Assembly: GCA_947176895.1 (NCBI GenBank)
Contig: CAMWSK010000007.1
Location: 1 to 64,000 of the forward strand
DNA from: an uncultured Prevotellaceae bacterium
GTDB taxonomy: Bacteria; Bacteroidota; Bacteroidia; Bacteroidales; Bacteroidaceae
Direction of reading: 5' to 3'
DNA: 64,000 bases
Within the stretch, counting starts at the first letter, position 1. Each line of letters begins with the position of its first letter. A program made the position numbers and the translations under genes. Under the pieces are notes generated by a model. It did not search any database. It worked only from the letters and a program-made list of their open reading frames with translations, and had not been told where the DNA came from. Below are positions 39,845 through 56,338 of the stretch, piece by piece.

Positions 39845-40063
39845 TCAGGATGCCAAACTCTTTGCATATATCTGTTTTTTAGTATGTTCAATAATATCTT
39901 GTAGTAGCTGATGTGCCGGACTATCTGAAAGGGACAGAACTAGGAAAATAATCACGAGAGCCAGCATCACAAGTGTAATTCCATATCGGGTCACAAAAGG
40001 CATAGTGCCTTTCATCAGTTTGTCCACCTCAGGACTATGTGCTTGCCTGTTTATTGTATCCAT
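39845..40063 (-). CDS. 72-residue single-helix membrane protein of the peptide locus
   Basis: A small protein with a polar N-terminus (MDTINRQAHSPEVDKLM), one hydrophobic helix (about residues 28-46, TLVMLALVIIFLVLSL) and a short polar tail. It starts 19 bases after the exporter stop. The N-terminal half resembles the start of HlyD-type adaptors paired with such exporters, but the long periplasmic part is missing. It may be a dedicated small subunit or a truncated adaptor; the IS remnant lies just downstream. Confidence 0.6.
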   Translation of the reverse strand: MDTINRQAHSPEVDKLMKGTMPFVTRYGITLVMLALVIIFLVLSLSDSPAHQLLQDIIEHTKKQIYAKSLAS

Positions 40064-40082
40064 ATCTTTTGATTCTGGGATG

Positions 40083-42281
40083 TTATGTCATTTGATGTTT
40101 TACCAGTTCATAGTATCTGCCATGCTTTTTCAACAGGGAATCATGGTCACCGCGTTCCACAATTTCTCCACCACTCATCACCACAATCTGATCTGCGTTG
40201 CGCACAGTGCTCAGCCGATGAGCACTGACCACCACAGTGCGCCCTTCATAGAAGTGGTTCAAGTTGTCCATAATATGTGCTTCGTTGGTGGAATCCAACG
40301 AGTTGGTGGCTTCATCCAAGAAAATATATTCCGGATTCTTGTAAATGGCACGGGCAATCAGGATACGTTGTCTTTGACCTTGACTCACTCCCTTACCCTC
40401 CATACCTATCTGGGTATCGTATCCCATGGGCAACGACTCTACAAAATCATCTATGCATGCCAAGCGGGCAGCCCTCTTCATGCGCTCCCTGTCCACCTCT
40501 TCCGTACTGAATGTGATATTGCCTCCTATGGTATCCGAGAAGATAAAACTATCCTGCATTACCGACCCTGTGGCGGCACGCCACGTGTGAGGGTTGATGG
40601 ATTGGAAGTCTGCTCCACCCACTCGGATGCTGCCGCTGGTAGGTTCATAAAACCCTTGCAGTAACTTGATGAGCGTGGTCTTGCCACATCCGCTCTCACC
40701 CACGATGGCCGTAACCTTGTGGGCAGGTATAGACAACGACACATTTTTCAAGGCCAACTCGTTCAGAGACCCATTGTAGCTGAATGACAGATTCTTTATT
40801 TCAATGTCACGTCCGGCAGGCAGCGTGGCAATCTTCTTCTCGATGTCGGTCTCCTCGTCATCTTGGGAATGTATCTCGTTCAAACGTTCCAAACTAATCT
40901 TGGCATCCTGAAACGACTGGGCGAAACCGATGAACTCGCCTATGGGAGCCGACACCTGACCGATAATATAGGTAAGCGACATCATCATACCCAAAGTCAT
41001 TGTCCCCTCCACCACCGACTTGGCTGCAATGTAATAGATAAGTATGTGTGTGGTCTGAGTGAAGAACACCGAACCGGACTGCTGTATCTGTCCGATACGC
41101 AGCCCCTTCAGACTTATCCGAAACAGCTTCACCTGTATGCGCTCCCACTCCCAGCGTTTCTGACGTTCACAGTTATTCAATTTTATGTCCTGCATACCCT
41201 GCACCAATTGAATCATCTTGCTTTGCTCCCGGGCCGACAAATTGAAGCGTTTGATGTCCAATTCACGTCTATATCGCATGAAAAAAGAAATCCAAGTGAC
41301 ATATAAAGCGTTGCCCACAACGAATATCGTCAGTACAGTCAAATTGTAATAGGCCAAGATGGCCAGGAACACCACAAAATTGATAAGTGAAAAGACGATA
41401 CGCATGCTGTTGGAAAGGAGGAAGTTCTTGATGCGACCGTGGTCACCTATACGTTGCAAGATATCGCCCGTCATGCGCGAGTCAAAGAACTGTAGCGGCA
41501 TGGCAGTGAGTTTGATTAGGAAATCAGCAATCAACTGGATGTCTATGCGCGAGTTCATATGGAGCATAATCCACGATCGTATATAATCGATACTCAACGT
41601 GGCAACGAAGAAGCCCAACTGCGCCAGCAAAATCAGCGTGATGATGCTCAGATTCCGCCCGTTGATGCCTTGGTCTACCATCGCTTGCGAAAGGAATGGC
41701 AGCACCATCTGGATTAAGCTACCAACCAACATGGCCAACAGCAACTGGCCGATCATGCTGCGGTAAGGCGTGAAGTAACGCGCAAACGACAACATGCTGC
41801 GGCTGTTTTTCCTATACTCGTCCTCCACTTTGCCAAAATTGTCACCCGGCTCCAGCATCAGGGCTACTCCGTAACTCTCCTCATTCGCGTTAAGCCCTAT
41901 CCAGCACCGTTCAAACTCCTCTCGGGTATAGGTCAGGCGTTGTGTGGCCGGGTCAGAGACGCGTATCTTGTATTTCCCGCCCTTATCCTTATCTATACCG
42001 TAGCAAACGACAAAGTGGTTTTGGTTCCAGTGCAGAATACAGGGGAACACGCCATCCCGGACCAGCTGATTGAAAGTGAGTTTCATGCCAATGGCATCGA
42101 AGCCGAGATGTTTGGCTCCCTCACAGATGCCGCGCATGCTTACACCCAGTCGGGAGATGTGGCAGTGTTTGCGCAGCATCTCTGTGGTATAACTCATGCC
42201 ATAATATTGCGCAATCATGCGCAGACTGGTAGGACCACAATCCGAGGCATTCAGCTGTTTATAGTGAGGGAAACGTTTCAC
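40083..42281 (-). CDS. Peptidase-containing ABC exporter (C39 + ABC), bacteriocin type
   Basis: A 732-residue PCAT that would cut the double-glycine leader and export the mature peptide. The N-terminal C39 domain (about 1-145) has the catalytic Cys in NASDCGPTSL, His in NQNHFVVCYG and Asp in VSDPATQ. A six-helix ABC membrane domain follows (about 160-450), then the ATPase with Walker A GESGCGKTTL, signature VSQGQRQRI, Walker B YIFLDEAT and an H-loop SAHRLST. It follows the outer-membrane barrel by 9 bases. Protease residues intact. Confidence 0.93.
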   Translation of the reverse strand: MKRFPHYKQLNASDCGPTSLRMIAQYYGMSYTTEMLRKHCHISRLGVSMRGICEGAKHLGFDAIGMKLTFNQLVRDGVFPCILHWNQNHFVVCYGIDKDKGGKYKIRVSDPATQRLTYTREEFERCWIGLNANEESYGVALMLEPGDNFGKVEDEYRKNSRSMLSFARYFTPYRSMIGQLLLAMLVGSLIQMVLPFLSQAMVDQGINGRNLSIITLILLAQLGFFVATLSIDYIRSWIMLHMNSRIDIQLIADFLIKLTAMPLQFFDSRMTGDILQRIGDHGRIKNFLLSNSMRIVFSLINFVVFLAILAYYNLTVLTIFVVGNALYVTWISFFMRYRRELDIKRFNLSAREQSKMIQLVQGMQDIKLNNCERQKRWEWERIQVKLFRISLKGLRIGQIQQSGSVFFTQTTHILIYYIAAKSVVEGTMTLGMMMSLTYIIGQVSAPIGEFIGFAQSFQDAKISLERLNEIHSQDDEETDIEKKIATLPAGRDIEIKNLSFSYNGSLNELALKNVSLSIPAHKVTAIVGESGCGKTTLIKLLQGFYEPTSGSIRVGGADFQSINPHTWRAATGSVMQDSFIFSDTIGGNITFSTEEVDRERMKRAARLACIDDFVESLPMGYDTQIGMEGKGVSQGQRQRILIARAIYKNPEYIFLDEATNSLDSTNEAHIMDNLNHFYEGRTVVVSAHRLSTVRNADQIVVMSGGEIVERGDHDSLLKKHGRYYELVKHQMT

Positions 42282-42290
42282 TTTTATGTT

Positions 42291-45086
42291 TTATTCCTTC
42301 TTTGGGTTTTTGTTGAACATCCATTGCAGGTGAAGCATGACATAGTTGGGCAGTGAGCGGTTCCATGTCTCCACACGCCCCTGCGCGTTCACTACGTATT
42401 TTGTGTTGGAGAGCCGGTGCAACAAATCGAAAGCTTCGAGACCGGCCACCAGCCTGCCTTTCAGAAACGACTGGCTGAGCGACGCGTTCCACACCAGATC
42501 GTCTGCATTCATAGAAGCAGAGCCGTAGCCGCGGCGGCTATACATCTTCAAATCGGTGGCCACGGTCAGACCGAAAGGCAGGGTATACCGCCCTTTGACT
42601 CCGTAGTTGTAGTCCACGGCATTGAGCGTAGAGAAACCGTGCATACAGCTCTCGCTGTGTACCCACATGGCATTGGCCTCGGCGCGCAGGTTCAGTTTGC
42701 CTTTGCTGTATTGCACGTAGGTTTTTTCATTCAGGGTCAAGTTGTTGACAACATTCTCTTGGCTTGCCGTCATCCCCTCCATCAGGGCGTGATCCACGTA
42801 GTGGTTGAGGCGGGCGTTGGCGGTTGTCTCCCATGTCCAGCGTTTCTTCTTGTCCAGCGCGTGCGTGATGTTGAAGTTGGCATACACATAATAGCTGCCA
42901 CTCACGTTCACGGGTCGGTAGGTATATTGTCCGTTCTGCGGATTGTAGGTCACAGACTGGGCCGTCTGGCGCTGCCAATAACCTCCGTTAAACCAGACAC
43001 GATAGTGGTTCATGGCTTCCTTGGTGCGCCTCTCGAAACTGACAGCCGCCGTCGTACGCTGGTTGCTCTTGAGATTCGGGTTGCCCAATTTCACCACCAG
43101 GGGTTGCGAGTCGTCGCGATAGTTGATAACATCAAAGATTGATGCCGGTGAAAAATTGTGAGAAACATTAAAATACCAATGCTTCTGATAGTTCTTCTTG
43201 GGATAGAGGTTGCAAGAGAAGTCAACGTATCCGTCAACACCTCTTTGTACGGCCAGCGTGTCAAGACTGCCTCGCCGATAATTCAGTTCCCTGTGGAACG
43301 GGACTACCATGGAGCTCATCTCCCAAACAGAATAGTCGTGTGTATATTCATAATCCCCATTACGATTCCGGAGGAATCCCCTTTTAAAGAGTCTGAGCCA
43401 TACGGGAACCTTGTGTCCGTAGAGATGGCTGTCGTATGAGTTGCTGCGATCGGTGATAGCCTGCAAGGCATCCAGCTGCGAGGGCAGCAGGAGAGTGTCG
43501 GGATGATAGAGGTAGTCGTGGGTCCGCTCGTTGTCGTACTCGTATGTCACATATAAGTTCGCAAAGATGTCTTTTGGCAAACGGCTGTTCAACGTCAAGC
43601 AACCGGATGCCGTGGTCTGCTTCCGATGGTAGGTATTGGTGTTGTATTGATTGTCGGCCACAGGCTTGTCGAATGCGTATGCCCTCGCTTTGTCCGTCTC
43701 GTCATCGCTGTGCCCCACACCAGCCTTATAGCTTATGCTGATTTCTTTCTCCTTGCTGATGGTAGACGTCCCGTCGGCTTGGAGCTGCGCGTTCCACGAG
43801 TGTCCACTGGTCATTCCTTGCTCGCGCATTCGCGTCACTAGGGTGTCGTTGAACTGCTCGGACAGCACGCTTGCATCGCCCGTATAGGAATTGTGCGCAT
43901 AGCTCACGTCCACCCCGTAGAATTGAGGCAGGACCTTGCGGAAACGGTTCTTCACGCTGATTTTGTTTGCCCGGGTGGTGCTCAAGTCGTGGCGGTTCTG
44001 TACGGGGATAAGCCCATTGAGAAACAGTTCGCGGCGCTGCCGCATCTCACTCTCGTCCTTGGTGGAAGCGAACTCGGCCGTCAGATCGTTCTTCGTGTTC
44101 TTGTCAGCCGACTGATAGCTGATTTCTCCCGCCGCGCTGTGGCTGGTGAGTAGCGATTGCGGTCGGGTGTTGGGGCTCCAGCTGCTGCTTTGCCCGATGT
44201 GCTGCTTCTCGTTCACGTTATTGGAATTGCCCATCAGGGTGAAGCGATAGGGGTCGGTGAAGCCCAGCAGAAAGCCCCGACCCAGATAACGATCCTTTGT
44301 TCCGCCCGCAGCCTCAAGGTTGCCGATAAGTCCCCGGTTGTAATCCTGCTTCAGGTTCACGTCCATCACAAACCTTTTCTTTTCGATGGCATAGCCCACC
44401 GCCCGGTTCTTGTCCGTGTCCTGCTCATACACTTTGATGTTCCTCACGGTATAGTAAGGCAGGTTCTCCAGCAGAACCTTGCTGTTGCCCCGGAAGAAAG
44501 AGCGCGAGCCTAACTGCAGTTCCTCTACCTTGCGGCCATGGACGAATATCTCTCCGGCATCGTTCAGCGTCACTCCGGGCAACTGGCGAATCAGGTCGTC
44601 CAGCATGGAGCCGTCGGGCAGTTGGAAATCCGAGGCGTTGTAGACCAACGTGTCTCCCCGGTAATACATCTTAACACGCGTAGCAGTAATCTCCACCTCG
44701 TTCATCTTTACGACACGCTCACGACGCAATTCCAAGGCGGGAACCATGAAGAATCCGGCCCCCTCATTGGGCAGATCCACCTTCTGCCACGCATCTGTGT
44801 ATCCGTTGAGCGAGGCACGAAACAGGTATTTTCCACCTTTCAGTGTCGCGGTATACTCCGCCTTGGTCACCTCTCCCTTGCTGTCCGTCTTTTGATTGAG
44901 AGGCACGGAGTCCATCACCACCACGCTGTCCGCCGTCAGTATGCTCACCTTGGCCTGGCAAATGGGGCGCTTCATCACAGCATCCTGCACCGTGCCGAAC
45001 ACGGGTATTCGGTTTTGTGCAGATACTGGGAACACCCATGTGATTAGTAACACAAAAAATAATAGGCTAGTATGAAGCCGATGCAT
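42291..45086 (-). CDS. TonB-receptor-like outer-membrane barrel of the peptide locus
   Basis: A 931-residue outer-membrane protein. Signal peptide to about residue 23 (VFPVSAQ), a carboxypeptidase-regulatory-like beta domain (about 27-120), a degenerate plug with DDLIRQLPGVTLNDAGEIFV and ENLPYYTVRNIKVYE, then a large beta-barrel ending WMFNKNPKKE. No SusD partner is present. In this setting it may be the outer-membrane exit for the exported peptide, or an immunity or uptake receptor; the sequence cannot decide. Confidence 0.85.
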   Translation of the reverse strand: MHRLHTSLLFFVLLITWVFPVSAQNRIPVFGTVQDAVMKRPICQAKVSILTADSVVVMDSVPLNQKTDSKGEVTKAEYTATLKGGKYLFRASLNGYTDAWQKVDLPNEGAGFFMVPALELRRERVVKMNEVEITATRVKMYYRGDTLVYNASDFQLPDGSMLDDLIRQLPGVTLNDAGEIFVHGRKVEELQLGSRSFFRGNSKVLLENLPYYTVRNIKVYEQDTDKNRAVGYAIEKKRFVMDVNLKQDYNRGLIGNLEAAGGTKDRYLGRGFLLGFTDPYRFTLMGNSNNVNEKQHIGQSSSWSPNTRPQSLLTSHSAAGEISYQSADKNTKNDLTAEFASTKDESEMRQRRELFLNGLIPVQNRHDLSTTRANKISVKNRFRKVLPQFYGVDVSYAHNSYTGDASVLSEQFNDTLVTRMREQGMTSGHSWNAQLQADGTSTISKEKEISISYKAGVGHSDDETDKARAYAFDKPVADNQYNTNTYHRKQTTASGCLTLNSRLPKDIFANLYVTYEYDNERTHDYLYHPDTLLLPSQLDALQAITDRSNSYDSHLYGHKVPVWLRLFKRGFLRNRNGDYEYTHDYSVWEMSSMVVPFHRELNYRRGSLDTLAVQRGVDGYVDFSCNLYPKKNYQKHWYFNVSHNFSPASIFDVINYRDDSQPLVVKLGNPNLKSNQRTTAAVSFERRTKEAMNHYRVWFNGGYWQRQTAQSVTYNPQNGQYTYRPVNVSGSYYVYANFNITHALDKKKRWTWETTANARLNHYVDHALMEGMTASQENVVNNLTLNEKTYVQYSKGKLNLRAEANAMWVHSESCMHGFSTLNAVDYNYGVKGRYTLPFGLTVATDLKMYSRRGYGSASMNADDLVWNASLSQSFLKGRLVAGLEAFDLLHRLSNTKYVVNAQGRVETWNRSLPNYVMLHLQWMFNKNPKKE

Positions 45087-45124
45087 GATAAAATAATGTT
45101 TAGAGATTTATTAATGTTTAGTGA

Positions 45125-45171
45125 GGGTGCCACTCCGTTTCCTTTATAATGAAAATCATGTCATGGCACCC
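45125..45171. other. Inverted repeat between precursor gene and outer-membrane gene
   Basis: GGGTGCCA (45125-45132) and TGGCACCC (45164-45171) are perfect reverse complements with 31 bases between. On the minus strand no U-tract follows. It may stabilise the 3' end of the precursor mRNA or attenuate reading into the export genes. Confidence 0.5.
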
Positions 45172-45190
45172 TTTTGTGTTTTATCGCGTC

Positions 45191-45439
45191 TTAATTCCTC
45201 TTGCAATAGAATTCGGCTTTATAGCGATCATCAGAGGTGTCCTCCGTATCACCACCTTCAATTTGAACATACTTAACACAACAAGTTCCCGTATAGAACC
45301 CACCGTCAACACCCACTGCACACGGAGTACCTTCTTTAGTACATTCAAAAGGAAAGAAATCACCACCTACCAGCATTTCCATTTCTTCACTGGAAAGCCT
45401 ACTACCTTGAGTCAAGGTAAAACGTTTTAATTTTCTCAT
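45191..45439 (-). CDS. Double-glycine leader precursor peptide (GG-Bacteroidales type)
   Basis: An 82-residue precursor. The leader is residues 1-26, MRKLKRFTLTQGSR then LSSEEMEMLVGG, with the C39 recognition pattern L(-12), E(-8), M(-7), L(-4), G(-2), G(-1). The predicted core is 56 residues with Cys at precursor positions 33, 40, 53, 54 and 79, and an acidic GGDTEDTSDD stretch. The gene lies between a VKOR/thioredoxin gene and the exporter genes. Five cysteines suggest two disulfides plus one free, dimerising or modified Cys. It resembles, from memory, the precursor family modelled as TIGR04149; activity is unknown. Confidence 0.85.
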   Translation of the reverse strand: MRKLKRFTLTQGSRLSSEEMEMLVGGDFFPFECTKEGTPCAVGVDGGFYTGTCCVKYVQIEGGDTEDTSDDRYKAEFYCKRN

Positions 45440-45492
45440 AATTTGTTTTTTTATTGTTATGCACTATTACAGTCGAGTTGCAAATTCGCTGC

Positions 45493-45530
45493 CAATGGTT
45501 CGTGCATGCCATTGTTATCTTGCAAGATAA
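45493..45530. promoter_or_regulatory. Adjacent palindromes upstream of the precursor gene
   Basis: TTATCTTGCAAGATAA (45515-45530) is a perfect 16-bp palindrome. Next to it CAATGG (45493-45498) pairs with CCATTG (45509-45514). They fill the 96-base gap between the VKOR stop and the precursor ATG and could be an operator or an mRNA processing site. Confidence 0.55.
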
Positions 45531-45535
45531 TTTCT

Positions 45536-47086
45536 CTATTCTATCGAAAGCCGTGTCATCATGGCCAAATCTGCCAATTTGTATTCGTGAGGGAGTTTAT
45601 ACCCATTCACCAACACTGTCGGGGTGGCTGTCAGTGCCACTTTCTGACGCCAGCGTTCATGCATGCTCACCTGTTCTTCCACTGACTCCGCATGGATTTG
45701 TGCGGCATTCTGCTTGATGATTCGCTGGTAATCATACTTATCTTTGGTATACCATTGATCAAACAGACACAAGGATTCATTCATCGGATGATTTTGGTAA
45801 CAGGCTATTAGGTAGCGGCTGCTGTCCTCCAACGGCTTATTGAATGCAGAAAAGATGTATTGTATGCAGATATCGTTCCCGCTCACGTTCAATAGTTCTT
45901 TCACCTGCTTATGCATCCTGGCACATGGATTACAATGTGGATTACTAAGAATTGTCACACACAACTTTGCCTGAGGATTGCCAAAGATGATTGAAGAATC
46001 ATCATGCGTGACTTCATAAAACTCACCCTGCTCAATAAGTGTTTTGCCCACCATGCTGTTGGCTTTAAGAGAACGGTACTCTTGCACGGCACGCACACGT
46101 TCTTGTTCGGATGCATGGTATTGGGCATACTGATGTACCATTAGGATACTAATAGCAAATACGATGCCTGCCAGCAGGACAATGTTGAACTGATAGGTAA
46201 TGGGAACTTTCTGGCACGACACCAAGGCCGCCACCCCCATCGTCCAAACGAGAATCTGAACAAGTACGCACAGCACGCACCAATTTTGGGCAATGCGCCA
46301 TTGATAATAGACGCTCCATATCCCATACGTCATAGCTGCCCAATTGATTACAGCAACAAAAAAATATGATTCCGGGAAGAGCGAAAGGAGCATGAGGTTG
46401 GCAGTGAAATATCCCAGTCCGACTTCACTCCAGCTGATGCCGAAAACTTTGGCCATTGGCCCATCGAGCACGCTGTTGCAGTCGGCATAATGAAACAGAC
46501 TGCACACCTTGTCCCCATAGCGGCTTTCACCAAACAACTGCTTTTCCATCAGCATAGTGCAGACAAGAATGCCCGCAACACTTAATGCCATACGCACGAA
46601 ATCCAAAACTCCGAAACTATGCAGATTGCTTACCACACCCACACCCACGGCTATCGCAAGTAGGATGGGTATACCATACGCCTTCACAGCCGATATCCGT
46701 TCGTCCATTTTGTGCTGTTTGTAGCTTGGTTCAACAGCATCAGTGGTTTTCTCCACGACAAGGGCATTTCCCGTCCACATCCGGTTGAACACATCATGAG
46801 AAATGGTTGTCTTCTTCTCCTTTTGCAGATAGGTAAGAGCATCCTCATCGCAATGTAGACCTATAACGAAATCTCCATGGATATGCAGGATGCACGGATA
46901 ATTCAATCTTGTCAGTTCCTTCGTGTCGATTCTGACACCTACCGACTTCACTCCATAGACATCCAACATCTTTTTCAATCCGAACATATTTCCCTTGTGT
47001 GGGTGTTCGTTATAAAGGCTGTTAGCGAAGTTTGATGTATAGCGAACATCCAGTGCGTCCAGAAAAAACTCAAGTATATTTTTCAT
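45536..47086 (-). CDS. C39-like (inactive) / VKOR / thioredoxin fusion oxidase
   Basis: A 516-residue membrane protein. Residues 1-115 or so have a C39-peptidase-like fold outline (MFGLKKMLDVYGVKS, CILHIHGDFVIGLH) but the Cys and His catalytic positions appear replaced (T/S and D), so it is probably a leader-binding domain. A VKOR domain (about 150-310) holds CSLFHYADC and the CVLC pair in NWCVLCVL. The C-terminal DsbA/thioredoxin-like domain carries NPHCNPCARMH. Predicted to oxidise Cys pairs of the precursor. Its ATG overlaps the preceding glycosyltransferase stop by 4 bases. Confidence 0.88.
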   Translation of the reverse strand: MKNILEFFLDALDVRYTSNFANSLYNEHPHKGNMFGLKKMLDVYGVKSVGVRIDTKELTRLNYPCILHIHGDFVIGLHCDEDALTYLQKEKKTTISHDVFNRMWTGNALVVEKTTDAVEPSYKQHKMDERISAVKAYGIPILLAIAVGVGVVSNLHSFGVLDFVRMALSVAGILVCTMLMEKQLFGESRYGDKVCSLFHYADCNSVLDGPMAKVFGISWSEVGLGYFTANLMLLSLFPESYFFVAVINWAAMTYGIWSVYYQWRIAQNWCVLCVLVQILVWTMGVAALVSCQKVPITYQFNIVLLAGIVFAISILMVHQYAQYHASEQERVRAVQEYRSLKANSMVGKTLIEQGEFYEVTHDDSSIIFGNPQAKLCVTILSNPHCNPCARMHKQVKELLNVSGNDICIQYIFSAFNKPLEDSSRYLIACYQNHPMNESLCLFDQWYTKDKYDYQRIIKQNAAQIHAESVEEQVSMHERWRQKVALTATPTVLVNGYKLPHEYKLADLAMMTRLSIE

Positions 47087-47844
47087 TTCGTGATATAGTT
47101 TGTCAGAGTTTCCCGATCCATTGAACAGACCCTCACAAATTCACGTCTTAGCCTATCACCATCGGCTTTGGATTGATAGGCAGAGTTCTTTTTGCGTGGG
47201 TGATATAGATGGAACAATTGCCCCTCCCGAGTCCACATAACTTTGTGCCCAAGGATTTTTACACGTCGCATACGTTCTGCATCCTCAGGTCCCCAACCGG
47301 TAAAGCGCTCATTCTCGCCCCCACACTGCAAATAATACTGTTGATGTACCAAATAAGCACCACCACATTGTTTCCTGCCAAGGAAAGAACTTAATCTCAA
47401 TTGGTGCAAATACTCAAAATCCGTTTTTACTCTCATGTTGGCAGACATTTTTTCGGGAAGCATTACGAACTGTCCATTATATGGATAGGCGATAGTACAC
47501 CCTGCAAGAATGTTGTTCACAGCTTCGTATATTTGGGCATAGCCAACCAAGACATCTGCATCCCAGACTGCTACTATGCGGGTTTCGGCCATGCGTAACA
47601 AAACGTTAATATATCGTGTGCGATGAAATACCAGTGAGAAATCCTTGACAAACAAATGTTCTACTCCATCCGGCCAAATCTCACCGCTCAACGTTGATGT
47701 GGCATCAGCTTCTAAAACAATTATTCTGCACCCTAGCCCGGCAAGGTGACGCAGAACGGCACGAAGGTTTTTCCGCCTCTCTTCGCTGTCTATGCGAACA
47801 GGGATGACAATGGTCAACAATGATTTTATATTTTGCAGTTGCAT
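47083..47844 (-). CDS. GT-A family glycosyltransferase with GWGPED motif
   Basis: A 253-residue enzyme with a GT-A fold start LLTIVIPVRIDSEERRKN, a DxD-type VWDADVLV (about 92-99), and a C-terminal GENERFTGWGPEDAERMRR like galactosyltransferases of the GT7-C type. Predicted to transfer a sugar, the acceptor plausibly being the precursor or a glycan. It overlaps the upstream GT4 gene by 19 bases and the VKOR gene by 4, so the set is tightly coupled. Confidence 0.85.
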   Translation of the reverse strand: MQLQNIKSLLTIVIPVRIDSEERRKNLRAVLRHLAGLGCRIIVLEADATSTLSGEIWPDGVEHLFVKDFSLVFHRTRYINVLLRMAETRIVAVWDADVLVGYAQIYEAVNNILAGCTIAYPYNGQFVMLPEKMSANMRVKTDFEYLHQLRLSSFLGRKQCGGAYLVHQQYYLQCGGENERFTGWGPEDAERMRRVKILGHKVMWTREGQLFHLYHPRKKNSAYQSKADGDRLRREFVRVCSMDRETLTNYITK

Positions 47845-49448
47845 ATCTTAAACGCATTTTGTATGATTGTCTTGTCTTGCGGCATGAGGGAAGGCGCATC
47901 ACCAGACAGGTGCGATGCAAGCAGCTCCTGCACACATGTCTGGTAAAAATTCGTTTGTCTCATGCTGTGTAGCATGGCCATCGACTCGTTCGGTAAGCGG
48001 TTGCCCACGGCCACCTCCCGCAGCCAATCCAGATAATAAATCAAGTACTCCTGAATGAGAGACACGTGGGCAGATTGCTCTCCCCGTTCACATAAAGCCA
48101 AACTTCGTCTCCACAAATACACACCGATGCCCCCAATCCCATAAAAGTTTGTGTCAATGTCGGGACATTGGTCTATCAACTGAAACATTTTGTAGTCGAT
48201 ATGCTCCAAAAAATCCGGTGACATTGTATAATTTGAACGGCAAAACGATTTTTCTATTGCCCGGTACGTTTCGCGAATCATGGAGGACACCCGATAGCGG
48301 ATTCCGTACAATTGGCTTACGGCTGCCGAAGCACGTCTATAAGCTTCATTGTCAGACAACAGCAAATCCATACGGGATGATATTTCGTTGACAAAACAAT
48401 CTTCGTTCCAGTTGTCCTCGTCAATTGGCACACGAAACTCGGGTGTTGCATCCAACATTTCTGCCAAACCCGTAGAATCCGTACCAATCAGAGGAATTCC
48501 ATGACGCATCATCTCTATGGCAGTGTAAGAGCATTGTTCGTGAAATGAAGGCATTACGCCGATAGTTGCCGTCTGATAAAGTCCATCCAACTCATTACTG
48601 GACATTTTTCCCATGAACATCACACGCCCCGACAACTCCCTGCATTGCGACAAATAACGCTGAAAATCACCATCACCAGCAATTACTAGACGGACATCTG
48701 GATGTTTTTGACAGATTGACTTAAACGCAGCTATCAAGTACTCCAATCCCTTAATCTCGTCCAGTCGGCCGACATACAAAACAGTGCGTAACTCCGGCGT
48801 ATCCGAGGCCGTCTTCAAACACAAAGCGTCTCCCTTTCCGTTATAAACCAACTGCAACTTCTCTGGAAAAACCGCATAGTCTTCCGTCAAGATCCGTTGC
48901 GTATCCTTCGATAGAACAAGAACCTCATCGGCAAGATGTAGAAAAGACTTTTCGCTTTCCACTGTGGACAGTATTTTTTTCTCCTTTTCGTCCTGTGGCC
49001 GGTATCCTTCGGCCGTGAGCCTGTGAAATTGCGTTTTGTTGCCTTTCAGCTCAAAGCACCAACCCAGATAGTGCACGGTAAGCACAATCCGGCAATCAAA
49101 GTATTGGTTCTTCAGCAACATGGCAAGCGGCATATGATGGAAGTAGTTAAATTGGAAAACCAACCGCTCCTCTGAACCGGGATTGATGTGTCTGGCCAGA
49201 AAATAAAACGAGGTGCGGCAATACTGTTCGCTTTCCATTTTCGATGGCAAGGTCGGAATGCCGTAGTGCTGGCATCCACGCTCATCCGTTGTGATTGTAT
49301 ACTCCTTGATATCATCCGAAACCATATCCACGAAAGACACTGTCACATTCTTGTGCTCTAATAGTCCCTCTGCAAGTGAACGGACATAGGTCCCGATGCC
49401 GTAATTAGCTGCCCTACTTGTATTGTTAAAGATGAATATATGTGTCAT
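47826..49448 (-). CDS. GT4 glycosyltransferase with extra C-terminal domain
   Basis: A 540-residue protein. The first 400 residues are a GT-B, family 4 glycosyltransferase: GIGTYVRSLAEGL near the start, TVLYVGRLDEIKGLEYLI, the EX7E-like EQCSYTAIEMMRHGIPLIGTD. Residues about 410-540 are an additional helical domain with NFYGIGGIGVYLWRRSL, reminiscent of LanC/GT-linked repeats. It resembles, from memory, the glycosyltransferase family named for GG-Bacteroidales peptide systems (TIGR04157). Its start codon overlaps the stop of the LanC-like gene. Confidence 0.85.
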   Translation of the reverse strand: MTHIFIFNNTSRAANYGIGTYVRSLAEGLLEHKNVTVSFVDMVSDDIKEYTITTDERGCQHYGIPTLPSKMESEQYCRTSFYFLARHINPGSEERLVFQFNYFHHMPLAMLLKNQYFDCRIVLTVHYLGWCFELKGNKTQFHRLTAEGYRPQDEKEKKILSTVESEKSFLHLADEVLVLSKDTQRILTEDYAVFPEKLQLVYNGKGDALCLKTASDTPELRTVLYVGRLDEIKGLEYLIAAFKSICQKHPDVRLVIAGDGDFQRYLSQCRELSGRVMFMGKMSSNELDGLYQTATIGVMPSFHEQCSYTAIEMMRHGIPLIGTDSTGLAEMLDATPEFRVPIDEDNWNEDCFVNEISSRMDLLLSDNEAYRRASAAVSQLYGIRYRVSSMIRETYRAIEKSFCRSNYTMSPDFLEHIDYKMFQLIDQCPDIDTNFYGIGGIGVYLWRRSLALCERGEQSAHVSLIQEYLIYYLDWLREVAVGNRLPNESMAMLHSMRQTNFYQTCVQELLASHLSGDAPSLMPQDKTIIQNAFKICNCKI

Positions 49449-50143
49449 TACAAAATAATATTTTTAAGAATGTAATAGGCACTGCCACCATCTATGTCCA
49501 GCGGCTTCTCCAAATAATCAGTTTCCGCAAACGTAGGCTCGTTCAAAATACTCATAAGTTGCATTTCTTCGGATGGTGCGACATATCCGGCCATCGTGTC
49601 TCGCAGTTCCTTAAGGTAACTACCGTCAAACGTGGTCACCATCTCTACACTTTGACGTAGCTTCAAATACATCATCAGTCCCCTTCCTCCTGTACGCACA
49701 GATTTGTCTGTTATCCTACGAGGGTCACGTTCCATAATTTTTTGATCTATGTCGACCAAAAGGTCATTTAAACTACATTCCAGCAAACCCCGTTTACACA
49801 ACAACGCCGTTCCATAGCCAATTCCGGCCAAGCCACGTTCCAAACCGATAGGCATATCAGTGTGCACCCCATCGTACACCTGTTGAAACAATTCCCACGC
49901 ATACTCGCGCATTACATCATCATGTAGTGCATCGGCATATAGGTACAATGCGACAACAATTCCCATTTTTCCGTGAAACAGCCCCAATTCACGCATATAG
50001 GAACTATGCAAAAGTAAATAATTTGCAATCCTTTCTTGTTCTTTCTTCATAACGAAATTATCACGTACATTTACCAGTAGCGCTTCATTGACTGCGTCCA
50101 CAGCGAGCGAGTTCAATCCTGTAACCCCTGAATGATTGTGCAA
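49448..50143 (-). CDS. LanC-like protein lacking zinc ligands
   Basis: A 231-residue protein with LanC-type toroid repeats: GLFHGKMGIVVALYLYA, GLERGLAGIGYGTALL, TGGRGLMMYLKL and DGGSAYYILKN. It is about half the length of LanC cyclases, and no Cys-His-Gly zinc motif is seen, so lanthionine cyclase activity is unlikely. It may be a scaffold or peptide-binding subunit working with the GT4 enzyme, whose C-terminus carries a similar motif. First gene of the locus. Confidence 0.78.
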   Translation of the reverse strand: MHNHSGVTGLNSLAVDAVNEALLVNVRDNFVMKKEQERIANYLLLHSSYMRELGLFHGKMGIVVALYLYADALHDDVMREYAWELFQQVYDGVHTDMPIGLERGLAGIGYGTALLCKRGLLECSLNDLLVDIDQKIMERDPRRITDKSVRTGGRGLMMYLKLRQSVEMVTTFDGSYLKELRDTMAGYVAPSEEMQLMSILNEPTFAETDYLEKPLDIDGGSAYYILKNIIL

Positions 50144-54120: not shown

Positions 54121-54150
54121 TATTTTATGTGAAATTTATTTATTGCGGTG

Positions 54151-54158
54151 CAAATTTA
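54151..54158 (-). promoter_or_regulatory. Candidate -7 element of gltX
   Basis: Minus-strand TAAATTTG matches TAnnTTTG, 30 bases before the ATG. Confidence 0.45.
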
Positions 54159-54192
54159 AGACTTTTTCGACACTTTTGCCACATATTTTCCT

Positions 54193-54200
54193 TATTTTTG
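54193..54200 (+). promoter_or_regulatory. Candidate -7 element of the 7TM-HD gene
   Basis: TATTTTTG matches TAnnTTTG, 29 bases before the ATG at 54230. The two elements face apart in a 109-base divergent region. Confidence 0.45.
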
Positions 54201-54229
54201 CCCGAAACATACGAAAATACGATTTGTCT

Positions 54230-56338
54230 ATGAGCCGATTCAACCATAATCTGAAAATATCCATTACGGGCTATGTCTATCGCGGATTGATAACCGTTGC
54301 CGCCATCGTCGCCCTCATCGTCCTGCTCCCCTATAACAACTCCGGCATATTGGAGTATCGCGTGGGAAAACCCTGGTTGGGAAATGACGTGATCGCCCAA
54401 AGCGACTTTCCTTTGCTAAAGCCCGACTCTGTCATCAAACAGGAAGAGGCAAAAATACGCGAAGAGTTCAAACCTGTGTATGAGCTGGATCCGGAAGTGG
54501 AGGACAAGCAAATCGATGTGTTTGCCAACGAGTTCAACCAGAAGGACGAACACATTCCCTACTATTACCGGAAATATGTGCAAAACCAGATGAGGTGTCT
54601 GTACGATGCCGGCATCATGCACGAGAACGACCTCAACCGCGAAACGGCAGAAAACCACCGGATGCTGACAGTCTCCTTTAAAAACATGGGAGAACAACGA
54701 CTGATGGGTTCGGTCTACACACCTTCATCGGCCTACAGCCACATCCTTGAACAGGCCGACACCACCCAGATAAAGTTATCCGTGCTAAGAGAAATGGATA
54801 TAGAGAAGTTTCTTGTCCCCAATCTCGTCTACGACAAGAAGCGGTCGGAAACCCAGTTGAACGAGGAAATCAAAAACATCACCCACTATAGCGGAGAAGT
54901 ACAGAAAGGCATGACCATCGTGCGTCACGGCGATATCGTAACCGAACAGACCGACCTGATTCTGAGCAGCATGGAGCAGCAAAACAGAGCGAACAAGGTT
55001 ACCATTGCCGAGATGGTGACCCAACGCATCGGACAAGTTATCTTCATCCTGATTATCGTGTCCTGCATGTTCCTATACTTAAGACAATTCCGCAATGATT
55101 TCCTGAGCAACTGGCGTACCCTGCTCTTCATCATTATCATGGTTTTCTCGTTTCCCGCCATCACCTACGCCATCATCAAGTGGGATGTGAGTCCCTATGC
55201 GGTTCCCTTTTGCATGCTCCCCATCTTCCTCCGCGTGTTCACCGATTCACGCACGGCATTCATCATGCACGTGTCCTCCATCCTGTTGAGCGCCATCGCT
55301 GTCACCAATCCATTTGAGTTCATATTCACCGAAATAAGTGCCGGACTGGTGGCGATTTTCAGCATGAGGCAACTCAGCAGCCGAAGCGAGCTGTTCCGTG
55401 CAGTGATGTATATCATGGCCTGTTCGTTGGTATGCACGTTTTGCTTCGACCTTATCAATAAAGCCTTCTTCACCGCCGAAGGCATCAGCGAGACCACCTA
55501 TCTGGTGATTGTTGCCAACGCCGCACTGCTGATGATTTCCTATCTGCTCCTTTTCCCATTCGAACGCCTTTTCCGTTTCACCAGCAACGTGACCATGGTG
55601 GAATTGTCCAACACCAACAACGAGGTACTGCGCCGCCTGAGCGAGGAAGCTCCGGGCACCTTCCAGCATTCGCTCCAAGTGGCAAACCTGGCCAGTGAAG
55701 TGGCAAGAAAAATCGGAGTAGAGACCCAGCTTGTGAGAACAGGCGCCCTCTATCACGACATCGGGAAACTGGACAACCCCGCATATTTTACTGAAAACCA
55801 AAACGGAAAGAATCCGCACGACAGCCTTTCATTCACACACAGCGCACAAATCGTCATCAACCATGTGCGAAACGGACTGGAGTTGGCCGAGAAATATAAG
55901 TTGCCTCAGGTGATTCGCGAATTTATCGCTACCCACCACGGTTATGGCAAGACACGGTACTTCCTGGTAAAGCAACAGAATGCCCACCCCAACGATGTGG
56001 TGGACGAACGTCCTTTCACCTACCCCGGACCCAATCCTCACACAGCCGAGCAAGCGATTCTGATGATGGCCGACTCCGTGGAGGCCGCGTCACGCAGTCT
56101 GCAGGAATACACCGAAGAAAACATCAGCGACTTGGTGGACCGCGTCATCGACACGCAGATGAGAGAGGGCTACTTCAACCTCTGCCCCATCACGTTCGAG
56201 GACATCGAAACAGCCAAACAGGTGTTTAAGGAAAAACTGAAAGTCATTTATCACACACGCATAAGCTACCCCACTCTTAGCAAAGAAGCCCAAGCAACAA
56301 AGGAGAATGAAGATCAGACGGGATCTACGTCGAAATAA
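54230..56338 (+). CDS. 7TMR-HD family phosphodiesterase (PgpH/YqfF type)
   Basis: About 702 residues from the ATG at 54230; an in-frame ATG at 54143 is upstream of the -7 element. One N-terminal membrane helix (LITVAAIVALIVLL), an extracytoplasmic 7TMR-HDED region (about 45-270), a seven-helix membrane domain (about 275-450), then an HD domain with FQHSLQVANLASEVA, ALYHDIGKLDNP and ATHHGYGKT. Members such as Listeria PgpH cleave c-di-AMP. With CdaA at 2519 in this window, the same role is likely here. Confidence 0.88.
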   Translation: MSRFNHNLKISITGYVYRGLITVAAIVALIVLLPYNNSGILEYRVGKPWLGNDVIAQSDFPLLKPDSVIKQEEAKIREEFKPVYELDPEVEDKQIDVFANEFNQKDEHIPYYYRKYVQNQMRCLYDAGIMHENDLNRETAENHRMLTVSFKNMGEQRLMGSVYTPSSAYSHILEQADTTQIKLSVLREMDIEKFLVPNLVYDKKRSETQLNEEIKNITHYSGEVQKGMTIVRHGDIVTEQTDLILSSMEQQNRANKVTIAEMVTQRIGQVIFILIIVSCMFLYLRQFRNDFLSNWRTLLFIIIMVFSFPAITYAIIKWDVSPYAVPFCMLPIFLRVFTDSRTAFIMHVSSILLSAIAVTNPFEFIFTEISAGLVAIFSMRQLSSRSELFRAVMYIMACSLVCTFCFDLINKAFFTAEGISETTYLVIVANAALLMISYLLLFPFERLFRFTSNVTMVELSNTNNEVLRRLSEEAPGTFQHSLQVANLASEVARKIGVETQLVRTGALYHDIGKLDNPAYFTENQNGKNPHDSLSFTHSAQIVINHVRNGLELAEKYKLPQVIREFIATHHGYGKTRYFLVKQQNAHPNDVVDERPFTYPGPNPHTAEQAILMMADSVEAASRSLQEYTEENISDLVDRVIDTQMREGYFNLCPITFEDIETAKQVFKEKLKVIYHTRISYPTLSKEAQATKENEDQTGSTSK

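Follow-up and report, generated by a model that had tools for sequence, protein, structure and literature searches.

A conserved double-glycine peptide locus of gut Bacteroidota that combines glycosyltransferases, a VKOR fusion and an uncatalogued leader element

Introduction

What kind of product would be made by a bacterial peptide locus that encodes a LanC-like protein, two glycosyltransferases and a thiol-oxidizing fusion protein, and neither a radical SAM enzyme nor a dehydratase? This question is raised by eight minus-strand genes within a 64,000-nucleotide stretch of DNA (the window; positions 1 to 64,000 of contig CAMWSK010000007.1, assembly GCA_947176895.1) from an uncultured Prevotellaceae bacterium, the genome of which is 2.42 Mb and 88% complete. 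An original prediction, made from the letters of the window only, had proposed that the eight genes form one locus for the oxidation and glycosylation of a secreted peptide. All eight open reading frames (ORFs) were found where it had placed them, and the locus is a real, conserved and new variant of the double-glycine (GG) peptide systems of the Bacteroidales, with an uncatalogued element that went unnoticed in that prediction. The reading preferred here, to which a probability of roughly 0.55 is attached, is that the locus makes a small secreted peptide that is both disulfide-bonded and glycosylated, and is most likely an anti-Bacteroidota bacteriocin by analogy with the bacteroidetocins.

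Organization and Recurrence of the Locus

The genes are closely packed: the ORF of the LanC-like protein overlaps that of the GT4 glycosyltransferase by 1 base, GT4 overlaps the GT-A glycosyltransferase by 19, and GT-A overlaps the VKOR fusion by 4, in line with the predicted overlaps of 1-19 bases. Family scans matched neither radical SAM nor pseudo-radical-SAM families in the eight proteins, nor any dehydratase family, and none of the 21 Radical_SAM matches across the window genome lies on the window's contig; that the locus lacks both kinds of enzyme had been correctly anticipated.

Recurrence was followed in 301 genomes of the same family, in which matches were obtained to GT-A (27 in 23 genomes), GT4 (15 in 14) and the VKOR fusion (24 in 23). 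Genomic stretches fetched around homologue matches are designated by L numbers and genomes by G numbers; those examined comprised 21 for GT-A (the six weakest matches being left out), 14 for GT4 (one left out) and all 24 for the VKOR fusion. The LanC-like protein, GT4, GT-A, VKOR fusion and precursor were found together in the window and in seven relatives (L051-L055, L057 and L152). With the 72-amino-acid (aa) mini-adaptor included, the set is complete in the window, L051, L054, L055 (continued in L155) and L152; contig ends truncate the loci of L052 and L053, and in L057 the mini-adaptor is replaced by an adaptor of 229 aa. Carriers of the locus include Paraprevotella xylaniphila YIT 11841, Paraprevotella clara YIT 11840 and Prevotella sp. 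P3-122. Co-occurrence of the kind that the original prediction had proposed to seek was observed, the gene order recurring in Paraprevotella and Prevotellaceae, and because this order recurs in other genomes, the gene set is considered to be more than chance. By its own terms the prediction would have failed had homologues of the glycosyltransferases and VKOR fusion lain mostly away from precursors. This was not the case: of the 24 VKOR-fusion stretches, 18 contained a GG or GM precursor (a doubtful one in L112 not being counted), as did 12 of the 14 examined GT4 stretches (of 15), counts that are approximate, as precursors were called by a custom leader pattern and then by eye, with chance ORFs also called and the L169 precursor missed.

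Some stretches depart from this arrangement. At L113:8859-14877, from the genus Paraprevotella, a decayed locus has its VKOR gene cut to 140 aa and retains the precursor, barrel, exporter, mini-adaptor and element; neither a LanC-like nor a glycosyltransferase match was found in that stretch. Extra DUF4422 and Porph_ging proteins are encoded at L054:6773-10345, and a weak FeeM match occurs at L055:13188-13847.

The Precursor, its Oxidation and its Export

The precursor gene (45191..45439, minus strand, as are all features below) encodes 82 aa, divided into a 26-residue leader ending in GG and a 56-residue core with five Cys residues. It passes the TIGR04149 model (27.6 bits against a cut-off of 25) and is the only match to it in the window genome. 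None of ten relatives' precursors tested reached this cut-off, with five matching below it. Cores of 12 VKOR-linked cassettes (L051-L055, L057, L060, L070, L103, L105, L106 and L109) contain 4-8 Cys, mostly 4-6 and in one case eight. A six-Cys frame with two CxxxC pairs (e.g., SCGTSC...TNCNGDC) is common to precursor cores of different genera (L051:12682, L053:468, L105:6140, L152:7962, and L156:3352 and 3671). The cores of L054, L055 and L169 have another frame in common, CxxxC plus CxC, the spacing of which we take to resemble that of defensins.

Upstream of the precursor lies the gene (45536..47086) for the predicted C39-like/VKOR/thioredoxin fusion. Its presence was borne out by family scans, which identified VKOR, Thioredoxin_4 and a C39 remnant, with the correction that the C39-like domain is without its catalytic Cys. 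The VKOR residues Cys195, Cys203, Cys270 and Cys273 and the thioredoxin residues Cys385 and Cys388 were invariant in all nine aligned sequences. VKOR/thioredoxin proteins form disulfides, and deletion of a thiol oxidoreductase was reported in passages on the bacteroidetocins to attenuate their activity (PMC6671954).

The exporter (40083..42281), predicted to be an active C39-ABC protein, is a full C39-ABC exporter by family scan and possesses a DCGPTSL sequence with a later His and Asp, presumably the catalytic motif. Exporters of this family cut after GG and then export the peptide. Next to it is encoded the 72-aa membrane protein (39845..40063), which matched no Pfam or NCBIfam family of its own. 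A profile built from six proteins of this type was compared with 3,833 ORFs from the fetched stretches, overlapping ones counted, and, after its own family, the next seven ORFs, representing six distinct genes (E 6.2e-6 to 0.098; 229-440 aa), were adaptors encoded directly 3' of an exporter. Adaptors of neighbouring systems have 437, 324, 243, 229 and 173 aa, of which the 437-aa protein was scanned and is HlyD-type; the 72-aa protein is too short for the periplasmic hairpin, lipoyl and barrel domains of HlyD-type membrane-fusion proteins. Since the profile ranks exporter-adjacent adaptors next, the protein, which the original prediction had left as a membrane protein of no stated kind, looks like an HlyD-type adaptor reduced to its N-terminal anchor.

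The LanC-Like Protein, the Glycosyltransferases and the Sugar Supply

A LanC-like gene is present as predicted, and its start was corrected from the TTG at 50143 to the ATG at 50050 because homologues align only from there, giving a protein of 200 aa (49448..50050). Its match to LANC_like falls below the family cut-off, and it consists of N-terminal repeats only (GLFHGKMG and GLAGIGYG), ending before the zinc-ligand half. The CH zinc-ligand motif is absent from it and was found in one of ten LanC-like proteins inspected (L066, position 104). It is probably not a competent LanC cyclase, to judge from these residues, and may be a scaffold or partner of the glycosyltransferases. With no dehydratase and a LanC-like protein devoid of the zinc-ligand half, a lanthipeptide was rejected as the product.

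The first glycosyltransferase (47826..49448) combines a GT-B fold (residues 1-407) with a helical C-terminal domain (residues 411-537). Its best family by far is TIGR04157, which it matches at 358 bits, under the cut-off of 400, suggesting a relative rather than a member of that family. Its homologues are not uncommon among database sequences, 781 of the 7,996 candidates scored reaching E 1e-30; at E 1e-60, only three of 314 genomes of the order matched, the window's included, and the other two did so over only approximately the first 390 residues. The structure comparison of GT4 covered residues 1-407. That the C-terminal domain is a piece of a split LanC was considered and not adopted, the profile comparison giving a probability of only 10.5, and it remains a lead. 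The second enzyme (47083..47844) matched Glyco_transf_7C, has DxD and WGPEDxER motifs of the GT-A type, and yields a profile resembling beta-1,4-galactosyltransferase 7. Active-site residues of both are kept across aligned homologues.

Sugar-nucleotide genes are added in five of the seven close relatives (L051-L054 and L152). Directly upstream of the LanC-like gene were found a UDP-galactopyranose mutase in L052, L053 and L054 and a PF01370 sugar epimerase/dehydratase in L051, L052, L053 and L152, these genes being called by family scans for L051, L052 and L054 and by similarity to those for L053 and L152. The epimerase/dehydratase, initially taken to be GalE-like, matches several models for sugar epimerases or dehydratases, each time scoring under the cut-off. 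Neither gene was found in the fetched stretches of L055 and L057. For L052, L053 and L054, the mutase beside the LanC-like gene lends support to galactofuranose as the sugar. L152 additionally has a truncated mutase ORF at its edge, and a mutase is encoded downstream of the decayed L113 locus.

The principal alternative, considered unlikely, is that the peptide is only oxidized, in the manner of the bacteroidetocins, and that the glycosyltransferases act elsewhere, on the barrel or a surface glycan for instance, perhaps in self-protection. Consistent with it, passages of one report describe a bacteroidetocin locus of four genes, encoding a five-transmembrane protein, the peptide, a thiol oxidoreductase and a C39-ABC exporter, that suffices for activity in Escherichia coli (PMC6671954), and stretches L103, L110 and L116 have a VKOR fusion, precursor and exporter without glycosyltransferases. 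It fits poorly with the overlap of the GT-A gene with the VKOR gene in the window, with the sugar-nucleotide genes adjoining the locus in the five relatives, and with the company kept by the LanC-like gene, which was beside GT-A or in the same stretch at 19 of the 21 examined places (L064 being counted at only E 8e-4) and accompanied GT4 at 13 of 14. A peptide that is both glycosylated and oxidized is therefore preferred.

The Leader Element and Cassette Exchange

The leader of the precursor gene, 3' of the VKOR gene, contains a conserved non-coding element of three hairpins (45473..45529; covariance-model match 45426-45529 or 45437-45529). In an alignment of 11 related sequences, 96.2% of cells pair, compared to 31-40% in slid controls, although that alignment also supplied the structure, which is thereby favoured over them. 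Six of 17 pairs are changed on both sides, as reached by 2 of 500 shuffles, and the covariation score is 0.266, this score and the paired percentage each being reached by none of the 500, a test that relatedness can inflate. Models built without the window still find its element (39.0 bits, E 7e-8; 53.2 bits, E 1.6e-10); model R1 includes the window and gives 66 bits by construction. The case for the element rests on this covariation across the 11 sequences and on the models made without the window.

Among 399 family genomes, ten matched the element model at E 0.01, nine of them strongly. Eight of the nine were already known carriers of the locus or its decayed form; in the ninth, G071, the element precedes a precursor and barrel. 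No such locus was found in the regions fetched around two extra weak matches (G219 and G071:C254), and among 314 genomes of the order the window was the sole match. An exact pattern of the element core returned eight matches on seven of the genome contigs searched and missed the window's own diverged copy, whose hairpin 3 retains three of five pairs. Rfam gave no gathering-threshold match for the element (tRNAs only in the window) and none at E 5 for the elements of L055 and the window. On this comparative evidence the element is uncatalogued and RNA-like. Two results weigh against an RNA: single-sequence folding of six copies was hardly better than that of shuffles (z -1.23 to +0.27), and the minimum-energy fold of the window copy, the least typical, keeps hairpin 1 and not hairpin 2.

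A weak element-like match at L054:974-1083 (= L172:4974-5083; E 0.0026 and 0.00035) stands before a second precursor and barrel, which follow the mini-adaptor. A different hairpin pair precedes the precursor in L105 (L105:6415-6560) and is seen, complete or partial, ahead of four of the five L156 precursors (L156:1-7916); it has a loop with TTGCAAC or TTGCGCAAC, followed by a GTGGA/TCCAC or GGCTAC/GTAGCC stem, and is perhaps an analogous leader element.

Cores and barrels are the variable parts of the locus. Exporters are 84% identical across genera (65% to L057), the barrels of the first seven loci 23-42%, and the cores 15-41% apart from a single pair at 67%. The loci of P. xylaniphila and P. 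clara have 88% DNA identity through the LanC-GT4-GT-A genes and beyond GT-A are alike only in one VKOR stretch (68%) and an island of element and leader (81%). Precursor-barrel cassettes occur in tandem in four genomes (L154, L155, L156 and L172), and in L055, L153 and L169 a barrel has a 5' exporter fragment next to it. The precursor and barrel are thus swapped between strains while the frame of enzymes and exporter stays. Core type and barrel agreed by nearest neighbour in 10 of 12 cassettes (p 0.0013; within versus between types, p 0.0002), with the three core types set by eye from Cys spacing after seeing the data and 12 of 17 cassettes used. One array (L156:74-13073) has five GG precursors and three barrels, one of these in two ORFs, before a single exporter, with one VKOR-LanC-GT4 set upstream, in L108.

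Such exchange raises a rather improbable alternative for the element itself, namely that the conserved DNA is a recombination site by which the cassettes move. It is indeed an island of identity between otherwise replaced stretches, and exporter fragments of the kind seen beside barrels would be expected if homologous recombination moves cassettes. A recombination site would not readily account for the paired changes that preserve the hairpins, nor for the position of the element, 11 of 12 strong copies lying just upstream of the start of an intact GG precursor; the remaining copy, in L153, heads a leader remnant without a core. The RNA-like element thus remains the favoured explanation of this DNA.

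The Outer-Membrane Barrel

The gene between precursor and exporter (42291..45086) encodes a protein with a signal peptide and, as modelled, a beta-sandwich, a plug-like region and a barrel of roughly 22 strands. It matched no Pfam or NCBIfam family by itself, and two of its 120 listed homologues carry PF14905 (OMP_b-brl_3). An AlphaFold2 model (mean pLDDT 75, pTM 0.59) was placed by Foldseek with TonB-dependent siderophore receptors (best E 2.6e-14; listed TM-scores just 0.17-0.35), and the modelled fold may be receptor-like, as the prediction of a TonB-receptor-like barrel would have it, with the TM-scores low.

This resemblance suggests a more doubtful alternative to a bacteriocin, in which the peptide binds metal or acts as a signal and is taken up by the barrel, which would serve as its receptor and not as an exporter or bacteriocin partner. 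That a barrel follows each precursor or precursor pair in the tandem array of L156 would agree with it. Against it stand the low TM-scores, obtained on a model of mean pLDDT 75, and the variable Cys frameworks and exchange of cassettes, which would better suit competition than a conserved role in metal chelation; a secreted bacteriocin is retained as the likelier product.

Proposed Pathway

In the preferred reading, the precursor would be made with its 26-residue leader, and a single cytosolic unit of the LanC-like protein and both glycosyltransferases, the products of overlapping genes, would add sugar to it. The C39-ABC exporter would then cut after GG and move the core to the periplasm, where the VKOR/thioredoxin fusion would form the disulfides, its dead C39-like domain probably holding the leader. 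As the adaptor appears reduced to an anchor, the exporter probably releases the peptide into the periplasm, where it is oxidized, instead of channelling it onwards, and the peptide may leave or act through its own barrel. The hairpin element probably sets expression of the precursor apart from that of the enzymes. Peptide glycosylation, leader binding by the dead C39-like domain, the roles of barrel and element and antibacterial activity are inferred. More tentatively, the locus may represent a modular weapon system of gut Bacteroidota in which a shared frame glycosylates (with galactofuranose in some strains) and oxidizes interchangeable Cys-rich peptides, each with its own barrel, from an RNA-element-controlled cassette and with type I export via an anchor-only adaptor.

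A number of observations weigh against the preferred reading. The window core has an odd number of Cys, and those of the decayed L113 and of L116 have three and two, respectively. Cousins without VKOR (L058, L059 and L062) also have four-Cys cores, and therefore Cys content does not mark VKOR loci. A VKOR fusion shares a stretch with a radical-SAM-type CxxxCxxC ORF in L060 and L116, so mixed VKOR/radical-SAM systems may exist and the two are not strictly exclusive. The window genome yielded no UDP-galactopyranose mutase match at 88% completeness, and for this reason galactofuranose is not claimed for the window. Distances between cores and between barrels were not significantly correlated (Mantel r 0.136, p 0.085, 17 cassettes; r 0.02, p 0.44, 11 with exporter), and the 67%-identical cores of L051 and L152 have unlike barrels; on these two counts strict co-evolution of precursor and barrel was rejected. 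Finally, no product of this gene set is known. Of the secreted, oxidized and glycosylated peptide originally predicted, the conserved locus with its GG leader and VKOR fusion is supported, and a sugar on the peptide stays conjectural; the proposed chemistry can be called plausible, not proven.

A radical-SAM-type GG natural product with its maturase encoded elsewhere is very improbable: although the window precursor passes the model of TIGR04149, whose name refers to radical-SAM targets, the genome has Radical_SAM matches and cousins L058 and L059 carry TIGR04150, the Radical_SAM matches all lie off the contig, none of the ten relatives' precursors tested reaches the cut-off, a motif scan found no candidate in L053, L054, L055 and L057, the motif ORF near L051 and L052 (presumably biotin synthase) sits among flanking genes, and that of the window (54143-55999) is not a Radical_SAM match. 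The preferred peptide would differ from sactipeptides as well as from classic lanthipeptides, as had been proposed, with the proviso that L058 and L059 combine the same LanC-like protein, GT4, GT-A and barrel with the TIGR04150 pseudo-radical-SAM protein in place of VKOR.

Relationship to Known Systems and Significance

The locus has the precursor family, GT4 family and C39-ABC exporter in common with the GG-Bacteroidales systems (TIGR04149, TIGR04157 and TIGR04150). It differs in having the C39-like/VKOR/thioredoxin fusion instead of radical SAM or pseudo-radical-SAM proteins, in its mini-adaptor and hairpin element, in a GT4 under the TIGR04157 cut-off, and in precursors of which all ten from relatives fall under that of TIGR04149. 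Glycocins of the sublancin type likewise have disulfides and a sugar on a GG-leader peptide exported by a C39-ABC protein. This likeness holds only if glycosylation is correctly proposed, and the present locus has other glycosyltransferase families, an outer-membrane barrel, a Gram-negative host and no shown helix-loop-helix core.

The bacteroidetocins, as described in passages of Coyne et al. (2019; PMC6671954), also combine a GG leader, a Cys-rich core, a C39-ABC exporter and a thiol oxidoreductase in few genes. Their leaders have 15-16 aa and their mature peptides 42-48 aa with four Cys, a definition outside which the window peptide falls (26 aa, 56 aa and five Cys), and the window locus lacks the five-transmembrane protein and adds two glycosyltransferases, the LanC-like protein, the barrel and the mini-adaptor. 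A further comparison is offered by clusters BGC3-5 of Bacteroidales ribosomally synthesized and post-translationally modified peptides, in which LanC-like proteins without the zinc triad are encoded beside GG precursors, with a glycosyltransferase in BGC3 (Fernandez-Cantos et al., 2023; PMC10352776). These have radical SAM and pseudo-radical-SAM proteins, and the passages concerned describe no VKOR fusion, mini-adaptor or RNA element. The gene combination was likewise not described in titles and abstract openings among the matches listed in searches of the open-access PubMed Central literature, nor in passages of PMC13289728 and PMC4922554.

The curated TIGR04149 precursor model misses these peptides, as the ten relatives' precursors demonstrate. 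To our knowledge, few peptide weapons of gut Bacteroidota have been characterized. The presence of the system in the cultured type strains P. clara YIT 11840 and P. xylaniphila YIT 11841 makes it directly testable. Its study would reveal how a LanC-like protein devoid of cyclase residues can function alongside glycosyltransferases and how a type I exporter manages with almost no adaptor, and the locus adds a novel RNA-like element associated with a single type of gene.

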